Shown here: positions 25,367-41,592 of the stretch, one piece after another
Position numbering within the stretch: the first letter of the stretch is position 1
Layout: each line of letters begins with the position of its first letter
From: Nitrosomonas sp.
GTDB taxonomy: Bacteria > Pseudomonadota > Gammaproteobacteria > Burkholderiales > Nitrosomonadaceae
NCBI GenBank assembly: GCA_021582655.1
Contig: CP091135.1
Span: forward strand, 2,085,843-2,136,520
Direction of reading: 5' to 3'
DNA length: 50,678 nt
The notes under the pieces: generated by a model
The model's input: the letters and a program-made list of their open reading frames with translations, nothing else
What the model was told of the DNA's origin: nothing
Databases searched by the model: none
Position numbers and translations under genes: made by a program

Positions 25367-26539
25367 ATGCAATTACCACCTTTGGTGAATCCTGTCGAAG
25401 AACTGAGTAAACAGGAGATTTCGCGATACAGTCGGCATTTATTGATTCCCGAAGTGGGATTGGCAGGGCAGCAGCGCCTTAAAAGCAGTAAGGTTCTGGT
25501 GATCGGTGCCGGTGGGCTGGGTTCGCCGGTACTGATGTATCTTGCCGCAGCCGGTATTGGAACGCTCGGTATCATTGATTTTGATGTGGTTGATGAATCA
25601 AATCTGCAACGGCAAATTATTCACCGCCAATCGGACATCGGTCGATTGAAATCCGAGAGCGCCCGTGATGCCATTCTCGAAATAAACCCTCATGTGTGCG
25701 TCCGTCTGCATAGCGAGCGTCTGGAAGCGTCCAATGCCGAAGCCATTATCGCTGCGTATGATCTGATCGTCGACGGTACCGATAATTTTGCCACCCGGTA
25801 TCTGGTGAATGATGCCTGTGTCCTGACCGGAAAGCCCTACGTATGGGGATCGATATTTCGGTTTGAAGGACAAGTTTCGGTTTTTTGGGAAAACGCCCCC
25901 GAGGGCGTGGGTCTGAATTACCGCGACCTGTATCCGGAACCACCGCCTGCTGAAATGGCGCCGTCGTGTGCCGAAGGCGGCGTTCTGGGGATTCTGTGCG
26001 CTTCGATCGGTGCCATGATGGCGACGGAAGCCGTTAAATTAATCACCGGCATCGGTGAAACCATGCTAGGTCGACTGGCTGTTTATGACGCGCTGGATAT
26101 GAGCTATCGGTTTATCCCGCTGCGAAAAGCACCGACAACAACCCCGATAACCCGGCTAATCGATTATCAACAATTCTGCGGCATCAATCACAACACAACC
26201 GCTCAGCCTGAATCGGTTCCCACAATCAGCGCTCGAGAACTGAAAGCGATTAAAGATCAAGGAACGAATATGCAATTAATCGATGTTCGCGGTATCGAGG
26301 AATGGAACATCGTGCATATAGACGGTGCCCGGCATATCCCCAAGAACCGGATGATGTCGAAAGAAGTGTTATCTACGCTCAATAAAGAAGACCTGATCGT
26401 ACTGCATTGCAAAATGGGAATGCGCTCGCGCGACGTGCTGGTTGAAATGCGCAAGTACGGATTCATCAATGTTAAAAGCTTGGAAGGCGGGATACTGGCG
26501 TGGATCAAGGATGTCGATCAATCGTTGCCGAGCTATTGA
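25367..26539 (+). CDS. MoeZ-like E1 adenylyltransferase/sulfurtransferase with rhodanese domain
   Basis: A 390-residue two-domain protein. Residues 1 to about 260 form a ThiF/MoeB-type E1 that adenylates the C-terminal glycine of a ubiquitin-like carrier: nucleotide loop VLVIGAGGLGSPVLMYLAAAG, ESNLQRQIIHRQSDIGR and the Cys of APSCAEGGVLG. The C-terminal rhodanese domain (about 285-390) has the persulfide Cys in LHCKMGMRSRD. The CxxC zinc pairs of MoeB are absent, as in MoeZ. A start at 25367 follows GGGGAG. It is the first gene of the thiocarboxylate-type cluster, and a double operator lies 180 bases upstream. Confidence 0.92.
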   Translation: MQLPPLVNPVEELSKQEISRYSRHLLIPEVGLAGQQRLKSSKVLVIGAGGLGSPVLMYLAAAGIGTLGIIDFDVVDESNLQRQIIHRQSDIGRLKSESARDAILEINPHVCVRLHSERLEASNAEAIIAAYDLIVDGTDNFATRYLVNDACVLTGKPYVWGSIFRFEGQVSVFWENAPEGVGLNYRDLYPEPPPAEMAPSCAEGGVLGILCASIGAMMATEAVKLITGIGETMLGRLAVYDALDMSYRFIPLRKAPTTTPITRLIDYQQFCGINHNTTAQPESVPTISARELKAIKDQGTNMQLIDVRGIEEWNIVHIDGARHIPKNRMMSKEVLSTLNKEDLIVLHCKMGMRSRDVLVEMRKYGFINVKSLEGGILAWIKDVDQSLPSY

Positions 26540-26631
26540 AGAACGACCGGTTATCAGGCCATTAATTCCGCATGACCGCGTTGCGTTGCTTTACCCATCG
26601 ACCAAATTTATCAATACCCAGGAGCCAGCAC

Positions 26632-27075
26632 ATGTTAACAATACATTACAAACTGATTAATGCCATGATTTCTCAGGCACTAAGCGACCATCCGATTGAA
26701 ACCTGCGGAATTATCGCAGGCCCTGCCGGATCAAGCCTGCCTTTGCGATTGATCCCGATGAAAAATATCGCGCAATCGGAAATTTTTTTCAAGTTCGACC
26801 CGCAACAGCAGTTGTGCGTATGGAAGGAAATGGAAGCACGTAATGAGGAGCCGATAGTCATCTATCACTCCCATACCGGTAGCCAGGCCTATCCAAGCCG
26901 TGCGGATATCGAGCTTGCAATGGAGCCTCAGGCGCATTATGTAATTATCCCCACTATCCATCTTAACCAAGAGGAAGTTCGCAGTTTCCGCATCATTGAT
27001 CAAATGGTGATCGAGGAAAAAATCCGGATCGTTCGCCAATATCAGCCCGAACTGGAATTACAGATGGTTGCTTAG
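26632..27075 (+). CDS. JAMM/Mov34-type metallopeptidase
   Basis: A 147-residue protein with the zinc-peptidase JAMM motif: Glu in HPIETCGIIAG and the block YHSHTGSQAYPSRAD (H-x-H-x10-D with the Ser). In the mycobacterial Mec and pseudomonad QbsD systems such enzymes remove C-terminal residues from a ubiquitin-like sulfur carrier or release its product. The start ATG at 26632 follows AGGAG; 20 upstream codons of the open frame lack a ribosome-binding site. It lies between its probable E1 and its probable substrate gene. Confidence 0.9.
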   Translation: MLTIHYKLINAMISQALSDHPIETCGIIAGPAGSSLPLRLIPMKNIAQSEIFFKFDPQQQLCVWKEMEARNEEPIVIYHSHTGSQAYPSRADIELAMEPQAHYVIIPTIHLNQEEVRSFRIIDQMVIEEKIRIVRQYQPELELQMVA

Positions 27076-27328: not shown

Positions 27329-27610
27329 ATGTCAATCACCGTCATAGTCCCTACCATATTAAGACCGCTCACCAATCAGCAAAAACAGATTCATATCGGC
27401 GGCACCAAAGTTTCGGAAGCCATCGATCAGCTGGAACAACAGTATCCCGGCATTAAAGCCAAGTTGGTAACGGAAGGCGCCGCTCATCGTTTTATCAATA
27501 TCTATGTCAATGATCATGATATCCGCTTCCAGAATGGATTATCGACTTGCCTGCAAGATGGCGATATTTTGACCATTCTGCCCGCAGTGGCCGGAGGTTC
27601 GCGGATTTAG
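27329..27610 (+). CDS. ubiquitin-like sulfur carrier protein (ThiS/MoaD/CysO type) with masked C-terminus
   Basis: A 93-residue beta-grasp protein: N-terminal strand ITVIVPTILRPLTN, VSEAIDQLEQQYPGIKAKL, NIYVNDHDIRF and LQDGDILTILPAVAGG. The sequence continues three residues after the diglycine (GG-S-R-I), so the adenylation-competent GG end must first be exposed, most simply by the JAMM peptidase encoded upstream. After activation by the E1/rhodanese protein it would carry sulfur as a thiocarboxylate. A clear ribosome-binding site (AAGGAA) precedes the ATG. Confidence 0.92.
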   Translation: MSITVIVPTILRPLTNQQKQIHIGGTKVSEAIDQLEQQYPGIKAKLVTEGAAHRFINIYVNDHDIRFQNGLSTCLQDGDILTILPAVAGGSRI

Positions 27611-27640: not shown

Positions 27641-29530
27641 ATGAATCGACCATTGAATCAATGCGTGATTACCGGACCGTCAAGGAATCCGGCCACCCAT
27701 TTCGCAGCAACAGCGTTCTCGCTGTTTTACCAAGCCAGTACATTGGGTATCAAAATGGAACACCCTCTTGATGAGACCGCAACCGGAAGGTTTGCATTTA
27801 CATTCCGAACGCCGGTCACCACACCGGTTACCTGCGATATAACCGCATGGGGTCATGATACTGAGTCGGCGCAAGCAAGTGAAAATATCATTCAAGCGGC
27901 TTGCGGCATGATGTCGGTTCATGGGCGGGCCGGCGGAAAAATTCAACCGCTGGGACTTCACTATGTATCGACGCTGACTGCCGCAATGGCGTTGCAAGGT
28001 GCGGTTGCCGCAGCACTCGGACAATTGCGGGGACTGACGGTCGCCAATACGCGGATTTCCATGGCGTCCGCAGCCTTGCTGGGCGCTTCCCAGTATATTG
28101 CGGATGCCACGGTTAGCGCAGCAAGCGAAAACTTGCCTGCGGTAAAGAAAAGTGAATGTCCCGCACCGCCTTTTATCTCGTCCGACGGTGTGGTGTTTGA
28201 ACTGGAAACGCTGAATGCGGACTCATGGTTGAAATTCTGGACCCGACTGGAAGTCAATCCGGTATTGGCAGGCACAGGGTGGACCGCCTTTTTGCTGCGC
28301 TATGCCAAAGCGTCGGCACCGGTTCCGGATGAGTTGTCGCATACGCTGACACAGATCAGCTATCGCGATATTGCGGCTTTATGCGCACAAACCGGCATGT
28401 CGATTTGTACGCTGTATACCCTTCATGAAAGAGTTGCGGATCAGCGCTTTAAAGATGAATGGCTCAATGGTCCATGGGCATTCGGATTGAACACGGATGC
28501 CGCGCATGCACAGGCAAAACCGCTCAGCTGTTCATTACCGCTGAGCGGACTGACGGTAGTCGAGTCTTGCCGCCGCATCCAAGGCCCTTTGGCCGGACAT
28601 CTATTAGCATTACTGGGAGCCGAAGTGATTCGTATCGAACCCCCGGGCGGCGATCCGTTACGCGGTATGCCGCCGATCGCGGATGGTTGCTCGGTAAGAT
28701 TCGACGCACTCAATCGGCTCAAGACCGTTCGTGAAATTGATATCAAGTCGGCCTCCGGGCAGTCGGAAGTCATGGCGCTGGTACGGGAAGCGGATGTTTT
28801 TTTACACAATTGGGCGCCGCATAAGGCCGCGCAATTGACTCTCGATGACGGTGACCTGGCCGGGTTAAATCCGGCACTGATTTATGCCTATGCCGCCGGT
28901 TGGTCGACTCAAGATGGCGATGCCCGTACACCATCCGATCCGATACCCGGTACCGACTTCATGGTACAAGCATATTCCGGAGTCGCACATAAAATCTCTC
29001 AAGCATGCGGCAGCCGGGGCGGTTCTCTGTTTACGCTGCTGGATGTGCTCGGCGGTGTCATCGCAGCGCAAGGAATAACCGTCGCGTTGCTCAACCGGTT
29101 TATGAATCGTCGCGGCGGCAAAGTCACTTCATCGTTGCTGAGCGCGGCAACGTTGCTGTGCAGCGAGGATTTTCAACGTCAATACAATTCTTTCGACACC
29201 CAGGTTCCACCGGCATGCGTGCTCAGCGAAGTGTACGAAACCAAACAAGGAAAAATAGCCGTCGATTGTTGCAATGAGGAAATGGTGCAGCGGCTATTGC
29301 GACTGCTTGACGAACCGACTGACTGTGCCCCTCCGGATGTGCATCAGCGGTTGCAAACCGTATTCCTGACCCAAAATGCGAGCCGATGGTTGAGCTTGCT
29401 GCAGCAGGCGGGCATTCCCGCGGTTGCTGTGGCTGAGGATTTGTCCGACTTGCCCCGCAACGCACAGTTGCAATCTTTTCTGCATCGCGGCACTTACCTG
29501 CAAGTGGTCTCTCCATGGAGTTTCCAATGA
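27641..29530 (+). CDS. CaiB/BaiF-type CoA-transferase family protein (two-part)
   Basis: A protein of up to 629 residues. The second part (from about residue 300) is a class III CoA-transferase domain: LSGLTVVESCRRIQGPLAGHLLALLGAEVIRIEPPGGDP, followed by ALNRLKTVREIDIKS, PGTDFMVQAYSG and TSSLLSAATLL (quoted in separate pieces of the domain). The first 300 residues look like a related but degenerate half. No good ribosome-binding site marks the start; ATG 27755 (MEHPLDE) is an alternative to 27641. The stop overlaps the start of the acyl ligase (ATGA). In a thiocarboxylate pathway it could transfer or hold an acyl-CoA intermediate, which is inference. Confidence 0.8.
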   Translation: MNRPLNQCVITGPSRNPATHFAATAFSLFYQASTLGIKMEHPLDETATGRFAFTFRTPVTTPVTCDITAWGHDTESAQASENIIQAACGMMSVHGRAGGKIQPLGLHYVSTLTAAMALQGAVAAALGQLRGLTVANTRISMASAALLGASQYIADATVSAASENLPAVKKSECPAPPFISSDGVVFELETLNADSWLKFWTRLEVNPVLAGTGWTAFLLRYAKASAPVPDELSHTLTQISYRDIAALCAQTGMSICTLYTLHERVADQRFKDEWLNGPWAFGLNTDAAHAQAKPLSCSLPLSGLTVVESCRRIQGPLAGHLLALLGAEVIRIEPPGGDPLRGMPPIADGCSVRFDALNRLKTVREIDIKSASGQSEVMALVREADVFLHNWAPHKAAQLTLDDGDLAGLNPALIYAYAAGWSTQDGDARTPSDPIPGTDFMVQAYSGVAHKISQACGSRGGSLFTLLDVLGGVIAAQGITVALLNRFMNRRGGKVTSSLLSAATLLCSEDFQRQYNSFDTQVPPACVLSEVYETKQGKIAVDCCNEEMVQRLLRLLDEPTDCAPPDVHQRLQTVFLTQNASRWLSLLQQAGIPAVAVAEDLSDLPRNAQLQSFLHRGTYLQVVSPWSFQ

Positions 29531-29989
29531 ATCATTCGGGGATTGTGGATTTGGTTCCGGCGGATATTCGTGACCAATGGATCAAGAGCGGTATTTATCC
29601 GAACAAATCGCTGTTTCAGTTGTTTTACGAACAAGCGCAACGCCAGCCCGACAAGCCGGCGGTTGTGTCCCCGGAACAAACCATCAGTTATGGTGAGTTG
29701 CAGCATAAGGTTGCTTGTCTGGCCGCCAGTCTGCATGACTTGGGTGTTGTCGCCGGCGATGTGATTGCCTATCAACTGTCCAATAGCTGGTATCACTGCG
29801 CGATTGATTTGGCGGCAGCAATGCTGGGCGCGATCGTCGCACCCTATCCGCCGGGCCGCGGATTGCTCGATACGCAGTCGCTATTAAGCCGATGCGATGC
29901 GCGTGTCATTATTGTGGAGCCCGGATTCGGCGAATTGGATATTTGCCGGATGATCGAGTCGCTCAGGCCTGCGTTATTGTCATTACGAA
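29527..29989 (+). pseudogene. AMP-forming acyl ligase, N-terminal fragment cut by the integrative element
   Basis: Host codons 1-154 of an acyl-CoA synthetase/adenylation enzyme (NKSLFQLFYEQAQRQ, KPAVVSPEQTISYGELQHKVA, AAAMLGAIVAPYPPG). The frame enters the mobile element after SLR and stops at 30076-30078 after element-encoded residues. Joining base 29989 to 37968 gives 1650 bases, exactly 550 codons, with the junction reading LLSLRILVVDGE, a normal adenylate-enzyme sequence. The fragment lacks the P-loop and all catalytic motifs, so it should be inactive. Confidence 0.93.
29982..29989. repeat. attL core ATTACGAA
   Basis: Left copy of the 8-bp direct repeat flanking the element. The inner seven bases TTACGAA are the complement of a tRNA-Thr anticodon loop, the usual size of a tyrosine-recombinase overlap region. 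Confidence 0.85.
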
Positions 29990-30094
29990 ACGTGATTAGA
30001 AATTATCTATATATAAAAATCAAATACTTGCAATGCTTGCCAAGCATGAAAACAGTGTCACACAACCTCAATCTATAGTAATTGTAGAGTACTT

Positions 30095-30117
30095 TGGCAC
30101 AATTTTGACACAATCGA
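30095..30117. repeat. candidate integrase arm-type sites, left
   Basis: Two direct repeats spaced 11 bases apart (TGGCACAA, TGACACAA), matching 20 of 23 positions with 37860-37882 near the other end, in the same orientation. Alternatively it is a relic of an integrase gene 3' end, since the right copy lies in the last codons of the integrase. Confidence 0.5.
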
Positions 30118-30195
30118 TTTTATAATCATTCAGTTTGATGTTTGAGAATCATAGATGATGAAATTGGCTACTGAACTACTAAATTTTCAATATTA

Positions 30196-30621
30196 TTATT
30201 CTTTTACAGAAATAAATTTAGCAACTTTTGATTTAAGTTCTGATAGTTGCTTTAATTCACATTCCCAAATTACAAGCACACGCCAATCTTTGGAATGAAG
30301 ATTTGCAATATGCTCAGCGTCCCGTTGCTTGTTGCGTTCGATTTTAGGCAACCAATATGATGTATTAGTTTTTGGTTTTTTCGATCCTAGCGGACAGTTA
30401 TGGCCATGCCAAAAACAACCATGGACAAATATGACAACCTTACGACTAATGAATGCGATATCAGGCTTACCGGGCAAGTCCTTTCTATGAATGCGATAGC
30501 CACTTTGCCCTAACTCTCGACATATCTTCCTGACGGTAATTTCAGGGATAGTATTTTTTCCGCGAATCCTACGCATTCTTTCTGATATTTTGGGATCCGA
30601 TCGAAAATCAAATACAGACAT
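30196..30621 (-). CDS. vsr: very short patch repair endonuclease Vsr
   Basis: A 141-residue Vsr homologue of normal length. It nicks beside T:G mismatches formed when 5-methylcytosine deaminates, and thus normally accompanies a C5-methyltransferase. Visible: RMRRIRGKNTIPE (catalytic Glu region), the metal-binding Asp in LPGKPDIAF, the zinc/His motif VHGCFWHGHNC, and WLPKIERNKQRD. It is the last gene of the leftward methyltransferase-nuclease-vsr group. Confidence 0.93.
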   Translation of the reverse strand: MSVFDFRSDPKISERMRRIRGKNTIPEITVRKICRELGQSGYRIHRKDLPGKPDIAFISRKVVIFVHGCFWHGHNCPLGSKKPKTNTSYWLPKIERNKQRDAEHIANLHSKDWRVLVIWECELKQLSELKSKVAKFISVKE

Positions 30622-30762
30622 TTAATTGTTTGCCAAAATCAGTTAAGACTGTAATCTCATATGCATTCGTACAGGGATATTTTGCTCGATGAACTGATTA
30701 AATATGTAGATAAACAGGGTTGATCTATTGAGCTAGAGTTGCTCTTGATGAGATGAAGTACT

Positions 30763-32073
30763 TTACGAGGTAAGACATTCAATTTTAGCCTTCAGTTCTA
30801 AAACCCAATCAATACATGGTTCATCTATTGGTGCAATTTCACGTCTCTTTTGGGCAAGCGATTCTGCATAGGCTAGAAGCCAAGCATGGAACAAATCAGA
30901 TTCAACCATTAAGACTCTGTTGCAGACATAGTGTATCCATTCATCAAATGTAATAATCTGAATATCAATATCGTGGTTTTCCTTGTAGGAAGAAATCTTT
31001 TTTTGTATCTCGTCATTTTTAATTGGAATTTCAGTAGTAACAAATCCTAAGATACTAATTTAATTATGATTATTGGCTTTTTCCATAACTTCGTCTAGTT
31101 CGTCGCGTAAATATGCTTTTCCATATTTAGCATCCCAAGACTCAATAATTTCGTCATCTTCCAATAGCTCAACATCACCAATATTTCCGTGTTTTTTATT
31201 GGCCGATCTCATTTGTGATAGAGGCTTTAGCGTGGAAAGACCGAAAGCTCCAGTGTCTAAAGCAGCTTGCATCAAAGCATGCATGCTTATTTCCATAAGC
31301 CTAGCGGCATAGTCAGAATCTTTAATGTGCGATTTTATTAATTCTGTAATAGTCGATTTATTTGGGTTTTCATCCAAAAATCTTTTGCACGAAACTAATA
31401 GCTCTTTTGAGACTTTCTGAAAATGCTCCGCTTTATTAAAAAGGAGGCTAATAAGATATTTTAGGGAATTGAGTGGATTAGCAGTGCCAGACTGGAGAGA
31501 TTCAACAATTATCAGCCATTCATTTCTAGCACCCCTCAATTGAGCTTTGTAAAGAGGAGAGTATGGATAGTTCTCTGCCAAACTACGCGTCATCATAAAA
31601 CCGTCAGCATTCAGCTTTAGTAAATCGTATTTTCTAAGTGCTGGAGTTACATAACACTTGTCTAATACTCTCATCGATATTCCTTCACGCCATGAAAATG
31701 AACTTTTGTTATTCCCTCCTTTGTGAAGTCTGATATTTTGAGCTGGATCAATAGTTTTAATACATAATTGCATAATCGTGAGTCCAATTAGAGCTCTTCC
31801 AACTTCACTAGTCAGAGAGTCCACCAGCTTTTCAAGACATACTTTCGTCTTTTCATCGATAAGCTCAATTTGGACATTAGATTTATCGTCCTGAACGCTT
31901 AGGATAATTTTTTCAAGAAAATTTTCTGCAAACTTTTCTTTTATTAGTTTAGATCTTGCTTTTGTCTCTACAGAAATTGCTCCTTCTTCAAAAATTTCTC
32001 TAACTTCCGGTGAGGACACATATTCGGATCTATTTTTATAGACTACTAAGTGCTTTTCAAAATCTTTTTTCAT
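30763..32073 (-). pseudogene. type II restriction endonuclease-like gene interrupted by an in-frame TAA
   Basis: An open frame of 337 codons (32073 to 31060) ends with NNHN-TAA, then stays open in the same frame for 98 more codons (ISILGFVTTEIP to IECLTS) up to 30763. No frameshift is needed and no ATG starts the second part. The first part ends with a PD-(D/E)xK-like catalytic element, IGDVELL then SWDAKYGK; the segment after the TAA looks like the following strand and helices of the same fold. The simplest reading is a CAA-to-TAA nonsense change inside the nuclease domain. It lies 9 bases after the methyltransferase, as a restriction partner would. The family name is not recognised; readthrough cannot be excluded. 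Confidence 0.75.
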
Positions 32074-32082
32074 TTTTTTGGC

Positions 32083-34035
32083 TTATAGCACAGTTAGTCG
32101 TTGTAGGCTTCTTTCATTCAAGGTTGGAAAAGCATAAGGAATTAAATAGTGATCAGTCTTGATTTGCTTGTTTGTGTTGTGGTTTCGTATTTCAAACCCA
32201 AGAGATTTCATCTCTACTAGTGCTTCCTTTAGCTGTTCTTTATTTGATTTGAAATAATCACATAGCTCATCAACATGGAGTGTTTTGCCAATACATAAGC
32301 CGTTTGAAACTTGTGAAATTACGTTCCAGAAATGATTATTTTCCAATAAATTATTATCAACAGTCATTTTCATATTCGCTATTTGCCGATATTGATAATA
32401 ACCAAAGAATTGTATAAGGTCATCATTGTAAGTATGATCTCTTGTTGCTTCCTCAAAAAATTTCCATAGCGCTAAAAGCGATTCTGAACTAATGCAGCTT
32501 GATTCTAAATACACAATTCTGGTACCTAACAAGTTTTGTTGCAATTGAGTTAGTTCTATGGATATCGAAAAGGCATTTGAATTGTCAATTTCTTGCCAAG
32601 CTAGAACTTTCCACTGGCTATCATTAAAATCAAACTTAAAATTAAACTTTGAAGAACCGGATGTCTCTATTTTGAGAAGCCTAAAATCATTTGTTAAATA
32701 GCGAACTGTTTCTCCACTCGATTTATTTTTCTGATTGCGTATCACTTTATTAAGGACATGTTTGTTTTGTTTTATATGCTCATCAGCTTTCTTTTTATAA
32801 ACCGCTGTCAGTGCAGATTTGCGTGTCCTGAATCCTAACTTTTGAGTCTCTGCCAAATATTCAATTTTAAAGGGGAGAATCACACCAAATATCTGATTTA
32901 ATATAGATGCTGCTAGTACTCGTCCGATTTGTGGTGGTACTGAATTCCCCAGCTGATGAACTACAGTTTGGCGCCCCCCTCTTATTACATAGTTATCCGG
33001 AAATGTCTGTAAACGCTTTATTTCTTCGATTGTAAATGTTCTATTTTCCCAAGAGAATGGACCGGTATATTGGCCACCTTGTGCTTTAATGGTTCGTACA
33101 GGAGTTTGGGGGTCTGCTTTATAAAGATAATCTGAAAATTTTGATCTCCATCCAAATATTGGTTTAGGATGCCCCATTCTTTCCGTGTAATAACTATAAT
33201 TTAATCCCGGCGGGATTTCATTTAGTAAGTGTCCATGCCTGCCACCAATACCTTCTGCGCATTTACTTGTATCAATACCTGAAACGGCAAGCCCGGCATT
33301 ATGGTAAGGTCTGTTATCAGTTGAATCTGGCCCATGAGAAGGTTTTGGAAATTTGAATTCATTAGCATCACGCACACCAACAATAATTAGTCTTTCTCTG
33401 TGTTGTGGCACACCATAGTCAGCCGCATCTAAAATTCTCCAAAATAGTTTATAGCCAGCTGCTCTAAAGGCCTCTAAGATTTGCTTCCAAGGTTTTCCGT
33501 CCTGGGCACCAACAATTCTATATACGTTCTCAAATAAGAATCCTAAAGGCTTCGTCTGCATAAGAATTCGTACATATTCTTCAAAGAGTTTGCCTCTACA
33601 ATCATCAGTGCCATTTACACCTGATGCGCGTGCCCCAGCCGCTGAAAATGTTTGGCATGGGGGGCCGCCTATAATGAATTGAATATCTTGGTGCTTGGGC
33701 GAATAATCCCTGATATCTTTGCACAAAACTTTTGTGCCAGAGAGTCTCAGGCTATCTGACGAATTCTCAATAAGAGTTGCCGCGAAATCTTTCTCAATTT
33801 CCACGCATTCCACAATTTCGAATCCCATATCATGAAAGGCGATATCTAACCCGCCACCGCCACTAAAAAGACTTAATGTTTTAATTCGTTGGATTCGATT
33901 TATTAATACCCAATTATGAAAATGATCACCAAATTTATCCGGCCATCCTGGTTGTTCACCAATAGATAAATTTATCAGTGCCTCTTCAAACCAACTTACA
34001 TTGCAATCATTATCAAATAACTTTGTTTGTTTCAT
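32083..34035 (-). CDS. DNA (cytosine-5) methyltransferase with extra C-terminal domain
   Basis: A 650-residue enzyme. The catalytic part covers about residues 50-385 with motif I (TLSLFSGGGGLDIAF), motif IV with the catalytic Cys (GGPPCQTFSAAG), motif VI (FENV), motif VIII (QHRERLIIVGVR) and motif X (QLGNSVPPQIGRVLAA). About 265 further residues of unknown function follow; typical enzymes of this type end near motif X. It starts the leftward cassette followed by a nuclease gene and vsr. The target sequence cannot be read from the protein. With the nuclease broken, it may now act as a solitary methyltransferase. Confidence 0.93.
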   Translation of the reverse strand: MKQTKLFDNDCNVSWFEEALINLSIGEQPGWPDKFGDHFHNWVLINRIQRIKTLSLFSGGGGLDIAFHDMGFEIVECVEIEKDFAATLIENSSDSLRLSGTKVLCKDIRDYSPKHQDIQFIIGGPPCQTFSAAGARASGVNGTDDCRGKLFEEYVRILMQTKPLGFLFENVYRIVGAQDGKPWKQILEAFRAAGYKLFWRILDAADYGVPQHRERLIIVGVRDANEFKFPKPSHGPDSTDNRPYHNAGLAVSGIDTSKCAEGIGGRHGHLLNEIPPGLNYSYYTERMGHPKPIFGWRSKFSDYLYKADPQTPVRTIKAQGGQYTGPFSWENRTFTIEEIKRLQTFPDNYVIRGGRQTVVHQLGNSVPPQIGRVLAASILNQIFGVILPFKIEYLAETQKLGFRTRKSALTAVYKKKADEHIKQNKHVLNKVIRNQKNKSSGETVRYLTNDFRLLKIETSGSSKFNFKFDFNDSQWKVLAWQEIDNSNAFSISIELTQLQQNLLGTRIVYLESSCISSESLLALWKFFEEATRDHTYNDDLIQFFGYYQYRQIANMKMTVDNNLLENNHFWNVISQVSNGLCIGKTLHVDELCDYFKSNKEQLKEALVEMKSLGFEIRNHNTNKQIKTDHYLIPYAFPTLNERSLQRLTVL

Positions 34036-34356
34036 CTTGTAAGAGTTTTTAGGAAAGAAATGGAACTAAAAGCCCATCGCGTAATTGAAGATAAACTATA
34101 TTGCATTAAAATGCGTGCATCATTATATATAGTCATTTCTACGATTAAGTAACGTGTGAGCTACAAATAACTATTTTCATTGAGCTGCTACATTTCTGAT
34201 TCTTTGATGCCAAACCAATGCCAAAGCTTGCAGAAGGATATCGCAAAAATATACAGAATTTGTATCATCAATCCGTTGTAGTTATATTAAAGAAATATCT
34301 AATTGTCTAATTATATTCATCTGCTCATCTAGTTAATCAGATTCAGAGTATAGATC
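34036..34356. other. AT-rich divergent intergenic region in the element
   Basis: 321 bases between the leftward methyltransferase and the rightward gene at 34357. It must contain promoters for both directions (TATATAGT near 34124, TATATTAAAG near 34282), but I see no clear operator or small gene. Confidence 0.4.
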
Positions 34357-35184
34357 ATGAACGAAACTCAGTATGCCCAAGGCATCACCGCTGAAATCCT
34401 TCGAGCCTTCCTTAAACTATGGGCGCAGCTTCCGTCTGGAATCGAGGAAACTATGCAATCAATCATTGAGTGTAATGATCTGTTCTTTGATAAAGATACT
34501 GGCTCGTTTAGCTGGTGTCATTTGTATGAATTACCCATTGAACAACATGTAGGTTATAACTTCTCTGGGCTTCTTTCAGAAGAACAAGTTAGCGAATGGC
34601 GCAAACAAATTGCTGAATCCCCTGGAAAAATTGCAGGTTTGACAAGTGTTGCTGAGCAAATCGATATTCATTTTGATGAAAGAGCAAGCCCTACAGAGGA
34701 GGATATCAAAACGTTACGCTCAATTCTTCCTACTATTTGTGCCTATTTTTATTCTGTGCAGTACTCTCTGCTATGCATTCTTTATTATGGCTGTTTTTTA
34801 AATGAATTAATTGCTCGTGTTCGATTAGGTGACGATAAAGCCCTGTTTGATGCTCTTCGAGTTGACCCAACGGTTATTGGATGTCAATCCGTAATTGAAA
34901 GAATCAGCAAAGCAAGAAGGCTAAAAGATAATGACTTTCTAGATGAACTCAAAAAAACTCAAAGTGGAGTTAGTGCAAGGCTTAAGCAAGCTAATTTTCA
35001 AAAGATGCGTCTAATTCTTAAGGTGCTTACTGAAGCAGGTGCAACACGCCTATCTAATAAGCAGCTTTATCAACTATTTGTTGAAGAACTGAATCTTTAT
35101 ACCGCAAATTCAAAGGGCGGTGGTGTTGAAAAGTCATTACGTGAATTTGTTGATACTTACATGAAGAAAAAAGCAACCATCTAA
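34357..35184 (+). CDS. element protein of unknown function
   Basis: A 275-residue protein without a domain I recognise. It is acidic in the first half and basic in the second; a hydrophobic, aromatic stretch (TICAYFYSVQYSLLCILYYGCFL, about 125-148, probably a helix of the fold or membrane-facing) lies in the middle. The first gene of the rightward group, 104 bases upstream of rep, so a role in replication or control of the element is possible but unproven. Confidence 0.55.
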   Translation: MNETQYAQGITAEILRAFLKLWAQLPSGIEETMQSIIECNDLFFDKDTGSFSWCHLYELPIEQHVGYNFSGLLSEEQVSEWRKQIAESPGKIAGLTSVAEQIDIHFDERASPTEEDIKTLRSILPTICAYFYSVQYSLLCILYYGCFLNELIARVRLGDDKALFDALRVDPTVIGCQSVIERISKARRLKDNDFLDELKKTQSGVSARLKQANFQKMRLILKVLTEAGATRLSNKQLYQLFVEELNLYTANSKGGGVEKSLREFVDTYMKKKATI

Positions 35185-35288
35185 AAACTCACTTTTTGGG
35201 TGGAATACAAATCTTGAGTTGATGTACAAAATCTCTTTCCGTTGCGATAAGCATTTTTTGCATGATCGCCGTGGATACGAGGTTAATC

Positions 35289-36671
35289 ATGAAGAAAGAA
35301 AGGAATGTTTCATCCAAGGCTATAGCATTTAAAAAAATCGAAGCCGCCGAGCCAACGCAGAGGACAACGAGCGGCAGCGAGGCGGACGGATGCGATGGCG
35401 AGGTGGAACAAGAAGTGAAGAATGCTTTGCATCAGTCAGTTTCATCCTCACAGGGTACGCTACCTAGTAACACAGTACCCTATAACTGCAATAATGATTA
35501 TTTCAAGCTTTTAAGGTTTGGAGTTGATAGCCTGTATTTATCCTATCAGGGTGAATTATTTCCTGAGGTCAAAGAACGGTTAATCAAGCTTAAACAACTA
35601 GCACAACATCCTGAAATAGATCAACAAGCACAAGCGCAATATGCCATTGCCGGTCATATCTTTGAAGTCAAGGATAAAGGCTCGTCAATATTCCCGTATG
35701 TGATGGAAGATGGCGCTTTCCGCATCAGCCTATCCAGAACCGGCAAGAGAACACCAATGGCGTATGTGAAGCTATCTTCCCGGTATCTATGCAGTATCAC
35801 ACCCAATGAAGCAGAAACGCACCTGCGCCATATCCTGAGTCAACTGGGCATCTTGTCAGATTATGCTCATGTCAGCCGTATTGATCTATGCGCTGACTTT
35901 GTTTCTCCTGAGAATATGGAATCCTGGGGTCGTGAAGCATGGATAACGCGCGGCAAGAAGATAGATGCTCATGCAGTCAATGAGAAATTTACAGGCTGGT
36001 CGATTGGCCTGGGGGGTAAGATTTCCTGCCGTCTCTATAACAAGCTATTGGAAATTCATACCAGCGGCAGAACCGATCTTGTTCCACTATGGAAAGAAAC
36101 CGGTTGGCAAGAGGATGAACCCGTCTGGCGTGTTGAATTTCAGTTGATGCGCGATGTATTGGCAGAACATGGCTTGATAAGCCTTGATAGCGTGTTGGCT
36201 AATTTAAACGGCTTATGGAGCTATGCTTCAACGGAATGGTTGCGCTTAACATTGCCCAATCCAGATGATCAAACCCGCTCACGCTGGCCGGTTCATCCGC
36301 TGTGGGGTTATATCTCATCTATTGACTGGGAAACCGACTTCAATACGCTTTCCCGATCATTCAAAGCAACGAGATTGCCTGAAGATAAACGGATACTGTC
36401 ATTAGGTGTCAGTTCATTGGCTTCCTTCATGGCAAAGTATGGCATCACAGATTTTGATGAAGGATTGGATCGTTTTCTACTGGCGCTACATCAATATCTT
36501 TGTGATCGCGGAGAGTTTGACGGGCTTTCAGGTGAAGATTGGTTTCTAGAGAAAGTGCGTTTGCGCGGCAAGGAATGCAACACGATCTCAAACATCAATG
36601 AAGCAGAACAAAAGCATCTGGAGATGGAGAGAGCTGCCAAAGATTATCGCAAAGCTTCGGAGGGCGAATGA
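35289..36671 (+). CDS. Rep_trans-like replication initiation protein
   Basis: A 460-residue protein resembling phage/plasmid replication initiation factors of the Rep_trans (pfam02486-type) group: FKLLRFGVDSLYLSYQG at the start of the domain, YAHVSRIDLCADF in the middle, and SCRLYNKLLEI, the R-x-Y-x-K element with the likely nicking tyrosine. Such enzymes start rolling-circle replication. The start at 35289 (MKKERN) follows GAGG; the frame is open 9 codons more. The stop overlaps the HTH gene start (ATGA). Presence of a Rep in an integrated element suggests a replicating excised form. Confidence 0.8.
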   Translation: MKKERNVSSKAIAFKKIEAAEPTQRTTSGSEADGCDGEVEQEVKNALHQSVSSSQGTLPSNTVPYNCNNDYFKLLRFGVDSLYLSYQGELFPEVKERLIKLKQLAQHPEIDQQAQAQYAIAGHIFEVKDKGSSIFPYVMEDGAFRISLSRTGKRTPMAYVKLSSRYLCSITPNEAETHLRHILSQLGILSDYAHVSRIDLCADFVSPENMESWGREAWITRGKKIDAHAVNEKFTGWSIGLGGKISCRLYNKLLEIHTSGRTDLVPLWKETGWQEDEPVWRVEFQLMRDVLAEHGLISLDSVLANLNGLWSYASTEWLRLTLPNPDDQTRSRWPVHPLWGYISSIDWETDFNTLSRSFKATRLPEDKRILSLGVSSLASFMAKYGITDFDEGLDRFLLALHQYLCDRGEFDGLSGEDWFLEKVRLRGKECNTISNINEAEQKHLEMERAAKDYRKASEGE

Positions 36672-36997
36672 AAACCCTTAACTTAGATGAAGCTGCTCAA
36701 TTTCTCAAGCTTCACCCTGAAGAAGTGCGTCGTCGTGCCAAAGCGGGAATTATCCCCGGTGCGAAATTGGGGAAGCGTTGGGTATTTATTGAAGATGATC
36801 TTGCTGCCTACATGCGCTCGTTATATGCTTCACCTCGGCAAGCGTTGCAAGTGGGACATGGAGAAAAACAATTATGTCACTCTGTAAACGTGGTAAGACG
36901 TGGTGGATTAGTTTCACCACACCAAGCGGCGAGCGAATTAGATGCTCTGCTGCAACTGAAGATAAAACCCAAGCACAGGAATTCCACGACAAGCTAA
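36668..36997 (+). CDS. excisionase-like helix-turn-helix protein
   Basis: A 109-residue protein with a MerR/Xis-type HTH in the first 55 residues (LNLDEAAQFLKLHPEEVRRR, AGIIPGAKLGKRWVF, DDLAAYMRS), typical of excisionases and control factors beside integrase genes. The C-terminal 40 codons overlap the integrase gene by 124 bases in another phase, an unusually long overlap. Its start overlaps the rep stop. Confidence 0.78.
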   Translation: MKTLNLDEAAQFLKLHPEEVRRRAKAGIIPGAKLGKRWVFIEDDLAAYMRSLYASPRQALQVGHGEKQLCHSVNVVRRGGLVSPHQAASELDALLQLKIKPKHRNSTTS

Positions 36998-37887
36998 AAG
37001 CTGAATCTTGGCGAGTTGTGAAACTGGGTGATAAGCCAAAACGCACTTGGGATGAAGCGGCTTATAAATGGCTGATGGAGACTCAGCATAAAAAGACACA
37101 TCATGATGACGTGGCTAAAATAAACTGGCTCCAACAGTTCTTTAGAGGCAAGTATCTCGATGAACTGACGCGGGATGTGATTGCAGAGATTGGCGAGTTA
37201 AAGCGAAAAGAAACGACTCCAGCTACAACTAATCGTTTACTTGCTCTAATTCGCTCAATTCTGCGCCGTGCGGCTCTTGATTGGGAATGGCTAGATAAAC
37301 CCCCAGTCATTAAGCTGTATCGTGAAGCAAAGCGTCGAGTGCGTTATCTGAATGCTACACAAGCAAGTATGCTCATTCAGGAATTGCCGCAGCATTTAGC
37401 CGATATGGTGACGTTTTCACTGGCGACAGGTTTGAGACGGTCAAACGTCACAAAACTGGAATGGTCACAAGTTGATATGCAACGCAATGTTGCATGGATA
37501 CATGGCGATCAGGCCAAATCAGGAAAACCGATTCATGTAACGCTAAATGCTACTGCAATAGCGGTATTGACTAAACAGATTGATAAACACCCAAGATCAG
37601 TATTCAGTTATAAGGGTAAATCAATCACGCAAGTGAATACAAAAGCTTGGTATAAGGCGTTAAAACGTGCTGGCATTGAGGATTTCCGCTGGCATGATTT
37701 ACGCCATACCTGGGCAAGTTGGCTAACTCAGAATGGTGTGCCGTTGAATGTCATTCAAGAGATGGGCGCATGGGAATCTGCTGAGATGGTAAGGCGTTAT
37801 GCTCACTTAGCACCTGAGCAATTTGCCCAGCATGCCAGAATCTTGGATGACGTGTTTAATGGCACGAATTTGACACAGTCGAAGTAA
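36874..37887 (+). CDS. tyrosine-type site-specific integrase
   Basis: A 337-residue phage-type integrase: N-terminal arm-binding part (MSLCKRGKTWWISFTTPSGERIR in pieces), core-binding region around residues 60-140, and the catalytic domain with Arg in TGLRRSN, HDLRHTWASW (His-x-x-Arg), GAWES at the position of the second His, and the nucleophile Tyr in MVRRYAHLAP. It lies 72 bases from the attR core, the usual place. The start is typical for the family although it lies inside the upstream HTH gene. Confidence 0.94.
   Translation: MSLCKRGKTWWISFTTPSGERIRCSAATEDKTQAQEFHDKLKAESWRVVKLGDKPKRTWDEAAYKWLMETQHKKTHHDDVAKINWLQQFFRGKYLDELTRDVIAEIGELKRKETTPATTNRLLALIRSILRRAALDWEWLDKPPVIKLYREAKRRVRYLNATQASMLIQELPQHLADMVTFSLATGLRRSNVTKLEWSQVDMQRNVAWIHGDQAKSGKPIHVTLNATAIAVLTKQIDKHPRSVFSYKGKSITQVNTKAWYKALKRAGIEDFRWHDLRHTWASWLTQNGVPLNVIQEMGAWESAEMVRRYAHLAPEQFAQHARILDDVFNGTNLTQSK
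37860..37882. repeat. candidate integrase arm-type sites, right
   Basis: TGGCACGA and TGACACAG spaced 11 bases, same orientation as 30095-30117; overlaps the last codons of the integrase gene and lies 77 bases from the attR core. Confidence 0.5.
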
Positions 37888-37922
37888 AAACGTTTTCGTT
37901 ATGTTTCTAAGTCTTTGATTAG

Positions 37923-37967
37923 TGGTGCTGTTGAGAGGAGTCGAACCTCCGACCTACTGATTACGAA
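37923..37967 (-). other. 3' half of tRNA-Thr(CGT), carried by the element as its att site
   Basis: Read on the minus strand this is a tRNA 3' half starting exactly at the anticodon loop: loop TTCGTAA (anticodon CGT), stem strand TCAGT, variable AGGTC, T arm GGAGG-TTCGACT-CCTCT, acceptor strand CAACAGC, discriminator A and CCA. No 5' half is present here. It shows that the ancestral target of the integrase is a tRNA-Thr(CGT) gene. Confidence 0.92.
37960..37967. repeat. attR core ATTACGAA
   Basis: Right copy of the 8-bp direct repeat; lies within the anticodon loop of the tRNA-Thr half and continues into the host ligase gene (ATC TTG GTT). Confidence 0.85.
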
Positions 37968-39154
37968 TCTTGGTTGTGGATGGTGAATCACGCGAAGGTT
38001 GGCATACGTTGGATCGACTATTCCGGTCCGAACCGATGATTCCTGACCGGTTACCCGCTGTAGATCCTAATGCGCCGGTACGATTCTTAATTTCTTCAGG
38101 AACCGAATCGGAACCCAAATGGATCGCCTATTCCCATAACGCCCTGGCGGGCGGTCGTGGGCGTTTTCTACAACGGATCCACCCGGACGGGGACAGTTTT
38201 CGCGGTTTGTATCTGATGCCGCTGGGAACGGCGTTTGGCTCGACCGCCACTTTTGGCATTTTATCGTGGCTCGGCGGCACGGTATCGGTATTGCGGCAAT
38301 TCGATGTCGGTGCCGCGATTCGCGCCATCGATAAGCTGCAACCGACTCACATTTTCGGAGTGCCCACCATGTTTCAACGCATTGCGGCGGATCCTGATTT
38401 TTCAAAAACGGACACTTCCGGACTGATCGCTATCATCAGCGGCGGCGCGAAGATGGACGAAGCATCGATACGCCGTTGTACCGCAGCGTTCAAATGCGGT
38501 TTTATCAGTTTATACGGATCGGCCGACGGTGTGAATTGCCATACGACTCTTGAGGACAGCTTAACCACGGTGCTGCATAAAACCGGCAGGCCGAACCCGG
38601 ATGTGTGTGCGATCAGGATCGTCGACGATCGCAAACAGGAAGTACCGCAAGGTGGCACCGGAGAAATTACCGCCAGAGGGCCGATAACGCCGCTGCAATA
38701 CGTCAATAATCCCGACCTGGATGCGTTGTATCGCGATGAAAACGGCTGGGTATACACCGGCGATCTCGGTTATATCGATGATGACGGGTATTTGGTGCTG
38801 ACCGGACGGAAGAAGGAAATCATCATCCGCGGGGGCGTCAATATCAGTCCGGCGCAAATTGAAAGCCTCGCTTCGTCGCACCCTGCGGTGGTGAGCGCGG
38901 TTTGCGTACCGGTTACCGATCACGATCTCGGTCAACGGATCTGCCTGTGTCTGGTGATGCGTGAAGGCACCGAACGCCCGTCGCTCGTGCAATTTACCCG
39001 CTATCTGCTGGCTCGGGGGCTGGAAAAGAATAAGTTACCGGAGTATTTGCGGTACTTGCGACAAATGCCGCTGGGCCCGGCCGGGAAAGTCGACAAAAAA
39101 CGTTTGACCGCCGAACTGGACCGTGTGCGGTTTACCGGAAATCCTGTTGCTTGA
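37968..39154 (+). pseudogene. AMP-forming acyl ligase, C-terminal fragment
   Basis: Continuation of the ligase begun at 29527. It contains the adenylation P-loop (FLISSGTESEPKWIAYSHN), YGSADGV, GEITARGP, the core motif YTGDLGYIDDDGYLVLTGRKK with the hinge, and the catalytic Lys of GPAGKVDKKRL. An in-frame TGA (37958-37960) in the element precedes it, and the first possible start is TTG 37970 without a ribosome-binding site. If it were translated alone it would lack the first 154 residues of the N-terminal subdomain. Confidence 0.92.
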
Positions 39155-39189
39155 TACCCCGCAACGCCTTAACTGCAACAGACACACTG

Positions 39190-40395
39190 ATGGCAAAAGT
39201 ACTTGAAAAAACAATGCATACCGAGCTAGCCAGAACGCTGGCGTGTCAGGTGAAAGCATTTGTCGACGAGAAGATCATTCCCCATGAATTGCAATTGGCG
39301 CACCGCGACGACCGATCGTTGCAATTACAAGCCGATTTGGCGCGACAAGCAAGGCTTGCGGGTTTATGCAATCTGTTTTATCCGTTATCGCATAGCGGGA
39401 AAATCGCGTCACTTGAGGACTACTTGATCGTTGCGGAGCAAGAGGGACATACGGAATTTTCTCAAGAGATTTTCGGCAGTCACACCGCACTGGATGCGCA
39501 TATGCTTCTAAGATTCGGCAATGAAGCAATTCACCGCCGGTTCCTTGAGCCGATGGTGGCCGGGACAGCGGTACCGAGCTACGGAATGACCGAGCCGGGT
39601 CACAGCGGTTCAATTCCAAGCCTGATTACAACCACAGCCGTCTTATCGAACGGCAAGTGGCATATCAATGGCAGAAAATGGTTCATTTCCAACGCCGACC
39701 GGGCAACTTTCATCACGATCCTGGCACGTACGGGAAATCCCGATACGGCTGTCAATCAAGCATTATCCATGATCATGGTTCCCACGAACACACCGGGATT
39801 CAAGATGGAGCGGCGGTTGACCATGATGGGTCATTCCTACGGACAGGGGGAAATTTCACTGCATGCCGTGCAAGTACCGGAACATTATCTGTTAGGCGGT
39901 TGCGGAAGCGGTACCGAATTGATGAATAAGCGGTTGAATCTCGGGCGATTGTTGCGCGCCATGAACTGGATCGGTTTGGCGCAGCGCTGCCTGGACTTGA
40001 TGGGTGCACGGATTCATTCCGCGCACGGTAAATTCAGCCGGCTGGCGGATAAACAACTGGTACGGCAGCATATGGTTAATGCCTACCATGTGATTGCGAG
40101 CGCGCGCGAGCTGATCCGTGTGGCGGCCCGAAGCGTGGATGCGCAATACCCGGATGACATCGCGATCAACGTTGCCAAAATGGCGGCCTCACACGCGCTG
40201 TGCATCGCTTCGGATTCAGCGGTTCAATTGTATGGCGCCGAGGGATTAAGCGATTTGACACCGTTGTTCGGCATCAGCCGGATAGCGCGCAGCTCCCGCA
40301 TCCTGGACGGCAATGACGAATCGCTGATCAGCTCGGTCGGCCGCCGTTTGATCAATTTCTATCAGCGTGAGCCAGCGTACTCTTTTGATCGATGA
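39190..40395 (+). CDS. acyl-CoA dehydrogenase-like flavoprotein
   Basis: A 401-residue member of the acyl-CoA dehydrogenase family: SYGMTEPGHSGSIPSL and WHINGRKWFISNADRATF (FAD and substrate loops), then MNWIGLAQRCLDLMGARI, VQLYGAEGLSDLTPLFGISR and RILDGNDESLIS at the C-terminus. The start MAKVLEK at 39190 is the first ATG; the frame is open 13 codons further. It lies 35 bases after the ligase gene and 6 before the MFS gene, in one operon. Such proteins desaturate or oxidise acyl thioesters; here the substrate is probably an intermediate made by the ligase. Confidence 0.87.
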   Translation: MAKVLEKTMHTELARTLACQVKAFVDEKIIPHELQLAHRDDRSLQLQADLARQARLAGLCNLFYPLSHSGKIASLEDYLIVAEQEGHTEFSQEIFGSHTALDAHMLLRFGNEAIHRRFLEPMVAGTAVPSYGMTEPGHSGSIPSLITTTAVLSNGKWHINGRKWFISNADRATFITILARTGNPDTAVNQALSMIMVPTNTPGFKMERRLTMMGHSYGQGEISLHAVQVPEHYLLGGCGSGTELMNKRLNLGRLLRAMNWIGLAQRCLDLMGARIHSAHGKFSRLADKQLVRQHMVNAYHVIASARELIRVAARSVDAQYPDDIAINVAKMAASHALCIASDSAVQLYGAEGLSDLTPLFGISRIARSSRILDGNDESLISSVGRRLINFYQREPAYSFDR

Positions 40396-40401
40396 CATCT
40401 G

Positions 40402-41592
40402 ATGCTGACGACCCCCGATAAATCCCCGTTCGCCACGACGACGGATGCAGCAATGCAATTGGTGCTGGTTTTTGCGATGACACTGCCAATGCTCATTTTA
40501 TATGCCACCAGTACACTGGGGCCGCTGTTGAGCCAGCAATTGCAATTCGAAACGGCATCGCTCGGTTATCTGATCATGAGTTCATTCGGACTTGCAGCGA
40601 TATTATCGCTGTTTGCCGGAAACATCGTGGCTTACCTTGGCGCCCGAACCGCCTTGCAGGTACTTTTCATTGCCGTTGCGGCGGCTTTTGCCATGATGGC
40701 CCAAGCAGCAACCTTCTCCAGCCTGGTGATCGCCGCCGCACTGTGCGGCATCGCGCAGGCGTTCGCCAATCCGGCCACTAATTTATTGATCGCACAGCAA
40801 ATCCAACCACAGAAAAAAGCCTGGGTGACCGGCGTCAAGCAATCCGGCGTGCAACTGGCGGCACTGTTTGCCGGATTGGTGTTACCGGTTATCGCATTTC
40901 AAGCCGGCTGGCGAACGGCATTCGGTATCATCGTTCCGTTAGCCGTTTTGTTTGCTGTAATGACAGCGGTGATCGTTCCCAAGGTATCGGCCGGCATTCG
41001 TCAGAAATTCGCCTTTTCGCGGCCGAACGCGCTGCTGGGATGGCTGATGGCCACACAATGCTGCGTGGCGCTTTCACTTTCCGCGTTTGTCACCTTTTTA
41101 CCGGTTTATGCGATCCAGCAAGGTATGTCCTTGTTAACAGCCGATAAACTGATCGCGGTTTTCGGCGCCATGGGAATGTTGTCCAGAATCCTGTTGACCC
41201 CCATGGCGGCAAAGCTCAAAGATGAGTCGCTGCTGTTATTCTGGCTGATTGCAATAGCGGCATGCGCCATGACGATCACCCTGCAAGCCGACTCGCGCAA
41301 TCATTGGTGTTTATGGATGGGTACGGTCGGTATGGGGTTTACGGCTGTCGCGACCAACGCCATCGCGATGAGCATGCTGATCAAGGATTCCGCATTCGGC
41401 AATGTGACAACCGCTTCCGGCTTTGTTTCCGTTGCTTTCTTCAGCGGTTTTGCTTTGGGGCCGCCTTTATATGCGGCGGTTACCCGGTACTCCGGCAGTG
41501 TGCAATTCGGCTGGGGGATGTTGATCGGCATATTCAGTTTAGCGTGCATCATGACCGTGTGCCTGGCGGTCGCACGGCGGCAATGCCGATAG
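40402..41592 (+). CDS. MFS transporter, probable exporter of the cluster product
   Basis: A 396-residue integral membrane protein with about 12 hydrophobic helices and MFS features (first half: FGLAAILSLFAGNIVAYLGARTALQ; GVKQSGVQLAALFAGLVLP in the fifth helix region). The start follows the acyl-CoA dehydrogenase by 6 bases and the two are certainly co-transcribed. It closes the rightward cluster; the hydrolase that follows is on the other strand. The direction of transport is inferred from the biosynthetic context. Confidence 0.85.
   Translation: MLTTPDKSPFATTTDAAMQLVLVFAMTLPMLILYATSTLGPLLSQQLQFETASLGYLIMSSFGLAAILSLFAGNIVAYLGARTALQVLFIAVAAAFAMMAQAATFSSLVIAAALCGIAQAFANPATNLLIAQQIQPQKKAWVTGVKQSGVQLAALFAGLVLPVIAFQAGWRTAFGIIVPLAVLFAVMTAVIVPKVSAGIRQKFAFSRPNALLGWLMATQCCVALSLSAFVTFLPVYAIQQGMSLLTADKLIAVFGAMGMLSRILLTPMAAKLKDESLLLFWLIAIAACAMTITLQADSRNHWCLWMGTVGMGFTAVATNAIAMSMLIKDSAFGNVTTASGFVSVAFFSGFALGPPLYAAVTRYSGSVQFGWGMLIGIFSLACIMTVCLAVARRQCR

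Follow-up and report, generated by a model that had tools for sequence, protein, structure and literature searches.

Probable off-target insertion of a tRNA-Thr(CGT) integrative element into an acyl ligase gene of Nitrosomonas

In a 50,678-nucleotide stretch of a Nitrosomonas genome, referred to here as the window (G000:C1:2085843-2136520 of a 2.46-Mb assembly rated 83% complete), the gene for an AMP-forming acyl ligase was found to be interrupted by an element of 7,978 bp. This 8-kb element is of a type that integrates into the tRNA-Thr(CGT) gene, and it has very probably integrated off-target, at a secondary site in the ligase gene. The event was probably recent, since the frames of both ligase pieces and of the element genes are intact. 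The GC content of the element is 0.394, and that of its two flanks is 0.499 and 0.542.

The split ligase and the carried tRNA half

The element is delimited by two copies of the core ATTACGAA on the forward strand, at positions 29982-29989 (attL) and 37960-37967 (attR), and the distance between them corresponds to the element length, as had been proposed in a sequence-only reading of the window. Joining the flanks at the core yields 553 stop-free codons from the ATG at 29515, and the joint reads LLSLRILVVDG. In three of 18 ligase homologues, the fourth codon counted from this start is a stop, so that the second ATG (29527) is the likelier start of the gene; counted from there, the 550 restored codons claimed in the same reading are correct. 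The ligase is now present in two pieces of about 155 and 397 codons. The PdtJ-like 5' part (29515-29989, or from 29527, + strand) covers positions 1-99 of PF00501 and ends in the left core, from which it joins in frame to the 3' part (37960-39154, +); the latter is open from the core over 397 codons and contains PF00501 positions 154-379 as well as the C-terminal domain PF13193. A search of 121 genomes, including this one, with a cut-off of E 1e-60 or better identified the ligase in 19, and the 18 others all belong to the genus Nitrosomonas. All 18 homologues possess a single open frame through the site, reading LLSLR(I/T)L(V/I)V, from which it follows that the ligase was whole before the insertion and that no base of the target was lost when it was cut; the expected uninterrupted ligase thus exists in relatives. 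Among named records, the four nearest ligases are from Nitrosomonas, followed by those of Proteobacteria metagenome-assembled genomes (MAGs), Nitrosospira and a Methylococcales MAG.

The right end of the element carries the 3' half of a tRNA-Thr(CGT) gene from the anticodon loop to the CCA (37923-37969, - strand), the last bases of which are shared with the ligase. This half had been described as perfect, and all of its 47 bases are indeed identical to the host tRNA-Thr(CGT) locus (G000:C1:303424-303499, - strand). Given this identity and the adjoining integrase gene, the match is not due to chance; the 10-mer ATTACGAATC alone is common, occurring at 7 places in the genome as compared to 2 for the reversed control. 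The left flank consists of ligase codons, in agreement with its earlier assignment as protein-coding, and is devoid of tRNA sequence, agreeing with the tRNA half at 13 of 36 positions. There is no tRNA gene within the window. A further question raised in that reading was whether the tRNA-Thr(CGT) gene is intact and empty: the gene is intact in the same genome, but its surroundings are not pristine, as it is adjoined by a piece of a related integrase with 77% identity, and a second decayed piece is located 6 to 7 kb away. These pieces indicate that the regular site was used earlier by an element that has since decayed.

A survey of 85 Nitrosomonas genomes, including this one, at a cut-off of E 1e-90 or better, which leaves out sub-threshold fragments such as one in G023, identified 32 close integrases (own included) that are at least 81% identical. 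Twenty-one of them are located directly at an intact tRNA-Thr(CGT), as predicted for the element family, two are in tandem before one, two are at contig ends, and seven are elsewhere, namely, that of the window, those of G077, G015, G094, G121 (which contains stops) and G123, and one of the two in G031. More distant relatives are placed likewise at tRNA-Thr(TGT), tRNA-Met(CAT), tRNA-Lys, and tRNA-Arg. A displaced tRNA half is present on the flank in all 10 left ends found upstream of close integrases; the left ends of the window element and of G094, which are outside those 10, have none. Its integrase motifs, the carried tRNA half and the relatives at tRNA genes identify the element as one that targets tRNA genes at the anticodon loop. 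At the same time, its precise ends, the intact non-tRNA target in relatives and a site unlike the primary attB make this insertion very probably a secondary-site integration of the type known from ICEBs1, and the intact tRNA gene, the on-target relatives and the whole ligase homologues together uphold the earlier interpretation of it as such.

Site requirement, proposed mechanism and alternatives

The tRNA gene offers a symmetric site, ACTGA-TTACGAA-TCAGT, composed of the 5-bp anticodon stem and the 7-nt loop, and the proposed 7-bp overlap TTACGAA (29983-29989 in the left core) corresponds to the whole loop. The ligase site, TGTCA-TTACGAA-TCTTG, matches the loop at 7/7 positions and each arm at 2/5 (4 of 10 stem positions). 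The view that little beyond overlap identity was needed is therefore sustained, though closer sites exist. In four ligase homologues that were compared, the loop is matched at 4/7 to 6/7 positions, which suggests that the site arose fortuitously in this lineage. When the 17-bp tRNA site was searched for in the same genome with up to 3 mismatches, 10 hits were obtained as compared to 2 for the reversed control. Six of them are accounted for by the tRNA on both strands, tRNA-Thr(TGT), and three ends of elements. The remaining four, all nearer to the tRNA site than the ligase site is, are unoccupied and lie at 797019, 1200453, 1222946, and 281867, the last of these being a whole hydrolase gene.

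The observation is confirmed, but the event is not the only one, since a further gene in this genome is divided by what is left of a related element. At G000:C1:1431943, a tRNA-Thr half containing 4 mismatches precedes ATTACGAA, after which come 177 codons that encode the C-terminal part of a serine hydrolase (PF00144), while the other hydrolase piece, at G000:C1:2390322 (- strand), has codons up to the same core, followed by the conserved left end of the family. The hydrolase is split at ACTGATTACGAA, and the pieces cover PF00144 positions 24-165 and 164-313. Its site, ACTGA-TTACGAA-ACCTT, matches the left arm at 5/5, the loop at 7/7, and the right arm at 2/5 positions. At this place, the three nearest genes in relatives carry ACTGATTACGAAAC (G092 and G085, the latter gene being itself interrupted by a stop) or ACTGACTACGAAAC (G124), and two whole paralogues in the same genome carry ACTGATTACGAAAC and ACTGATTATGAAAC, respectively. 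The presence of both target-gene halves supports the interpretation that the hydrolase was split by a decayed related element in what would be a second off-target event. Several observations weigh against so simple an account: no homologues of the seven element proteins were found near either piece; the right end is of a two-half type, in which the Thr-CGT half is preceded at about 120 bp by a decayed Thr-TGT half, and may be that of another element, inserted in tandem; and about 958 kb separate the two pieces. For each of them there is a 100-N gap nearby, with an identical 103-bp repeat next to it, so that the distance may reflect a scaffolding error or a rearrangement at the repeat. Of the three sites of the Thr-CGT type observed in this genome, two lie in protein genes, and the two events show a requirement for full identity of the 7-bp loop, combined with a weak or one-sided stem match. 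As both occurred naturally in one genome, in the presence of the primary tRNA gene and with uninterrupted homologues at hand, the attB requirement can be read directly.

Candidate arm-type sites, TTTGGCACAAATTTGACACAA and variants, are paired on both sides of attP. The left attP arm (29990-30115, +) is kept in the family and contains the candidate site TTTGGCACAATTTTGACACAAT at 30093-30114, 19-21 of 21 positions of which match at +111/+112 in all 8 canonical left ends scanned. On the right, AATGGCACGAATTTGACACAGT (37858-37879, +) matches at 16-20 of 21 positions at -102/-103 from the core in 21/21 on-target relatives; since it overlaps the end of int, this conservation may be partly coding. 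It is proposed that the integrase, bound to attP via these arm sites (TTTGGCACAAATTTGACACAA at about +111 and -102), would capture a weak chromosomal core, and that strand exchange would succeed because the 7-bp overlap is identical. In the tRNA gene the carried 3' half would repair the target; the ligase could not be repaired in this way and would be left split. The ligase is part of a thiocarboxylate cluster described below, and the corresponding pathway has probably lost its acyl-activating step and would so be blocked. A broken biosynthetic gene is a concrete example of the cost that tRNA targeting normally avoids. A perfect ligase would result from excision, because the two ends have the same overlap, but by analogy with ICEBs1, excision from this site should be inefficient.

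Four points count against an off-target insertion as described. Four better sites, with 3 mismatches each, are empty, which implies that chance or survival and not the best match decided the location. The cut positions were deduced from identity, and the loss of the product from the split gene. Finally, the junctions are taken from a scaffold assembly, which contains 100-N gaps outside the window. The scaffolding and the completeness of 83% would be compatible with an element contig misjoined to ligase contigs by assembly or binning, but this is very improbable: the window contains no N, joining the flanks recreates the ligase with single-base precision, as a random misjoin would not, and at the left end the conserved arm of the family directly follows the ligase codons. 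It is just as improbable that the element acts as a regulated switch of gene integrity, excising under some condition to turn the pathway on, as elements of cyanobacterial nif genes do. Intact int and xis, the identical overlap and the perfect join would allow excision to restore the gene, yet none of the 18 homologous ligases carries an element, the regular site of the family is tRNA-Thr, and the ligase site is not kept in relatives, the 4 homologues compared matching the overlap at 4/7 to 6/7 positions. The least likely account is a tandem array, in which the tRNA half at the right end would be followed by another element and the ligase pieces would be part of that element. Such arrays exist in the family (G034 and G065 at tRNA-Thr, G027 at tRNA-Met), but here both flanks are pieces of one chromosomal gene in an operon, the window lacks a tRNA gene, and the in-frame join refutes an array at the ligase.

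Off-target candidates and side observations across the family

A divergent integrase was considered as the cause of the insertion and rejected as not convincing, as just T119, L140, and S216 differ from all 21 on-target integrases, which carry A, I, and A at these positions. Likewise rejected as off-target cases were the truncated right ends of G034, G065, and G027, which are tandem arrays. In G031, according to the reading of translations, the right end coincides with the 3' end of a second integrase-like open reading frame (ORF) beside tRNA-Ser.

G094 (L219:1310-10311) is a third case and adds support to the off-target interpretation: both element ends are next to non-tRNA DNA, and the variant loop TTAGGAA is present at both. 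One neighbor is what we take to be the end of an IS110-like transposase, and the other is a response-regulator-like gene. Either the attP overlap has been altered, or a mismatch was resolved in favor of the host sequence on two occasions. A search of the 85 genomes at up to 3 mismatches did not reveal an empty site, and retargeting to tRNA-Arg(CCT) was dismissed, given that the loop of the G083 tRNA-Arg(CCT), CTCCTAA, does not match.

The conserved left end was also used as a pattern to scan the 85 genomes, with one mismatch tolerated and the reversed pattern as control, which resulted in 43 hits and 0 for the control. Six hits were set aside by sight as not representing element ends. Among the remainder, 25 carry a Thr-CGT half that matches at 24 to 36 of 36 positions (in the weakest, L299, the match is confined to the inner part), 3 carry a Thr-TGT half, and 9 carry none. 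These 9 are the two sites of the present genome, two in G020, and one each in G061, G078, G030, G077, and G123. Two of them (in G020 and G123) match at 19 of 36 positions and could be decayed halves. For five (G020a, G061, G078, G030, and G123), neither an element-protein homologue nor a Thr right end was found in 18.7, 15.3, 18.3, 1.7, and 7.0 kb downstream, respectively, and these five may be off-target scars or truncated remains; the left end in G030 is preceded, at a distance of about 1 kb, by a tRNA-Lys half. G020b is close to a Thr-TGT left end, and G077b is near a contig end. Two of the 9 are backed by both target-gene halves. That the Nitrosomonas integrase family commonly inserts off tRNA genes, needing essentially only the 7-bp loop, so that the half-less ends (9/37) represent scars, is less likely than not. 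If this were true, Nitrosomonas would provide a natural data set for the minimal attB and, through G094, for the acquisition of new overlaps.

Several side observations concern the same family. Tandem pairs at one tRNA anticodon loop were seen in L249, L248, and L255 (tRNA-Thr CGT twice, tRNA-Met CAT once). A recurring arrangement is a mostly decayed tRNA-Thr(TGT) half, followed by about 120-130 bp with GTCTACAT-type repeats and then a tRNA-Thr(CGT) half (L072:7781-8030, L248:11652-11900, L254:1585-1802, L263:2417-2635, and L207:7691-7908), which is apparently a second, different element type on the same anticodon-loop core. In two close relatives (L250:15277-16752 and L247:17384-18834), a tRNA-Ser gene is followed by an integrase-like reading, and the right end of the relative falls at its 3' end or close to it. 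In Thr(TGT)-targeted and many Met-targeted elements, the excisionase is mostly 83-96% and the integrase 65-76% conserved, as if xis were kept while the specificity of the integrase diverged; other family members (integrase 60-68%) do not have this pattern.

Element genes, known systems and the thiocarboxylate cluster

The tyrosine integrase of the element (36874-37887, +) is of the SfV type, matches PF00589 and possesses the R, HxxR and Y motifs. It overlaps by 124 bp with the gene of an excisionase of the HTH_17 family (36668-36997, +; PF12728, phrog_2907). Upstream of these, a protein of 469 amino acids (35262-36671, +) has homologues of 39-90% identity in 20 element loci and is probably a replication initiator, because the 1.7-kb Mesotoga plasmid pTHEBA.01 encodes a distant relative (26.5% over 284 amino acids) in the larger of its two genes; Pfam yielded no match, and neither credible matches among solved structures nor close relatives among viral contigs were found. 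A 275-amino-acid protein (34357-35184, +) is common to some family members (54-58% identity over most of its length, 5 loci). The cargo consists of a C5-cytosine DNA methyltransferase (32083-34035, -; PF00145, TIGR00675) and a Vsr-type mismatch endonuclease (30196-30621, -; TIGR00632, above cut-off). A 337-amino-acid protein (31060-32073, -) adjoins the methyltransferase and has zero matches in Pfam, NCBIfam, PADLOC, and PHROGs; from its position, it is possibly an unrecognized restriction enzyme and partner of the methyltransferase. None of these three genes was detected in the element loci used for comparison, many of which are partial. Among the 7 element ORFs scanned against Pfam and PHROGs, 3 of which are without any match, no phage structural genes were recognized, and the same ORFs contained no relaxase or type IV secretion genes as judged by Pfam and NCBIfam. 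By its recognizable gene content, the element is neither a temperate phage nor an integrative and conjugative element.

The integrases of SfV, SfII, and SfIV share 47-48% identity with the element integrase over the whole protein, and these phages integrate at thrW. In SfV, the overlap of xis and int is also 124 bp, and the sequence after int also carries a tRNA 3' half that ends in ATTACGAA. Unlike the SfV-type phages, the 8-kb element has a probable replication initiator, a methyltransferase/Vsr cargo and a location in a protein gene. In the case of SGI1, a different integrase and a non-tRNA primary site are involved. A parallel is offered by ICEBs1 of Bacillus subtilis, for which an excerpt of the study (PMC3715440) reports a 17-bp attB in which a 7-bp crossover region is flanked by 5-bp inverted repeats. 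The 27 insertions obtained there fell into 15 secondary sites, with excision reduced or eliminated at those analyzed. To the extent covered by this excerpt, both systems have the same attB layout, insertions at sites that differ from attB, and autonomous replication, which is probable for the present element, but the ICEBs1 insertions were selected in the laboratory after deletion of the primary site, whereas the present case is natural and the primary tRNA gene is present. Furthermore, ICEBs1 is conjugative and the element has no recognized conjugation genes. Excerpts of other studies describe SGI1 integrated both in tandem and at a secondary site of the chromosome (PMC2297512), 2,083 islands with anticodon-centered sites identified by Islander (PMC4383910), and rare secondary sites of a mycobacteriophage at which the overlap was not conserved (PMC10865867), so that overlap identity is no universal rule. 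In the open-licence literature surveyed by title and start of abstract, no natural off-target event of this family was reported. The present case would be a natural example of known secondary-site integration that appears to work like that of ICEBs1 in the laboratory.

The genes that surround the split ligase, judged by their sequence, form a thiocarboxylate (siderophore-type) cluster of the PDTC/quinolobactin type. Excerpts of the literature list ThiS, ThiF-rhodanese, JAB, CaiB, and AMP-acid ligase as siderophore biosynthesis (PDTC, quinolobactin) with the codes Neur and Nmul (PMC1779556, row 4a) and note that clusters of this kind conserve a pair formed by an acyl-CoA synthetase and a type III CoA-transferase (PMC6006322); Neur and Nmul were read here as Nitrosomonas europaea and Nitrosospira multiformis. 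The gene set is alike, and the cluster of the window differs by its split ligase, as a result of which genome mining would misread it as holding two ligase fragments. Upstream of the ligase, and all on the + strand, are a PdtF-like ThiF-rhodanese (25367-26539; PF00899, PF00581), a PdtG-like JAB protease (26572-27075; PF14464), a PdtH-like ThiS-type sulfur carrier (27329-27610; PF02597), and a PdtI-like type III CoA-transferase of the CaiB type (27641-29530; PF02515). Downstream follow, on the same strand, an acyl-CoA dehydrogenase (39151-40395; PF00441, PF02770, PF02771) and a major facilitator superfamily transporter (40402-41592; PF07690).

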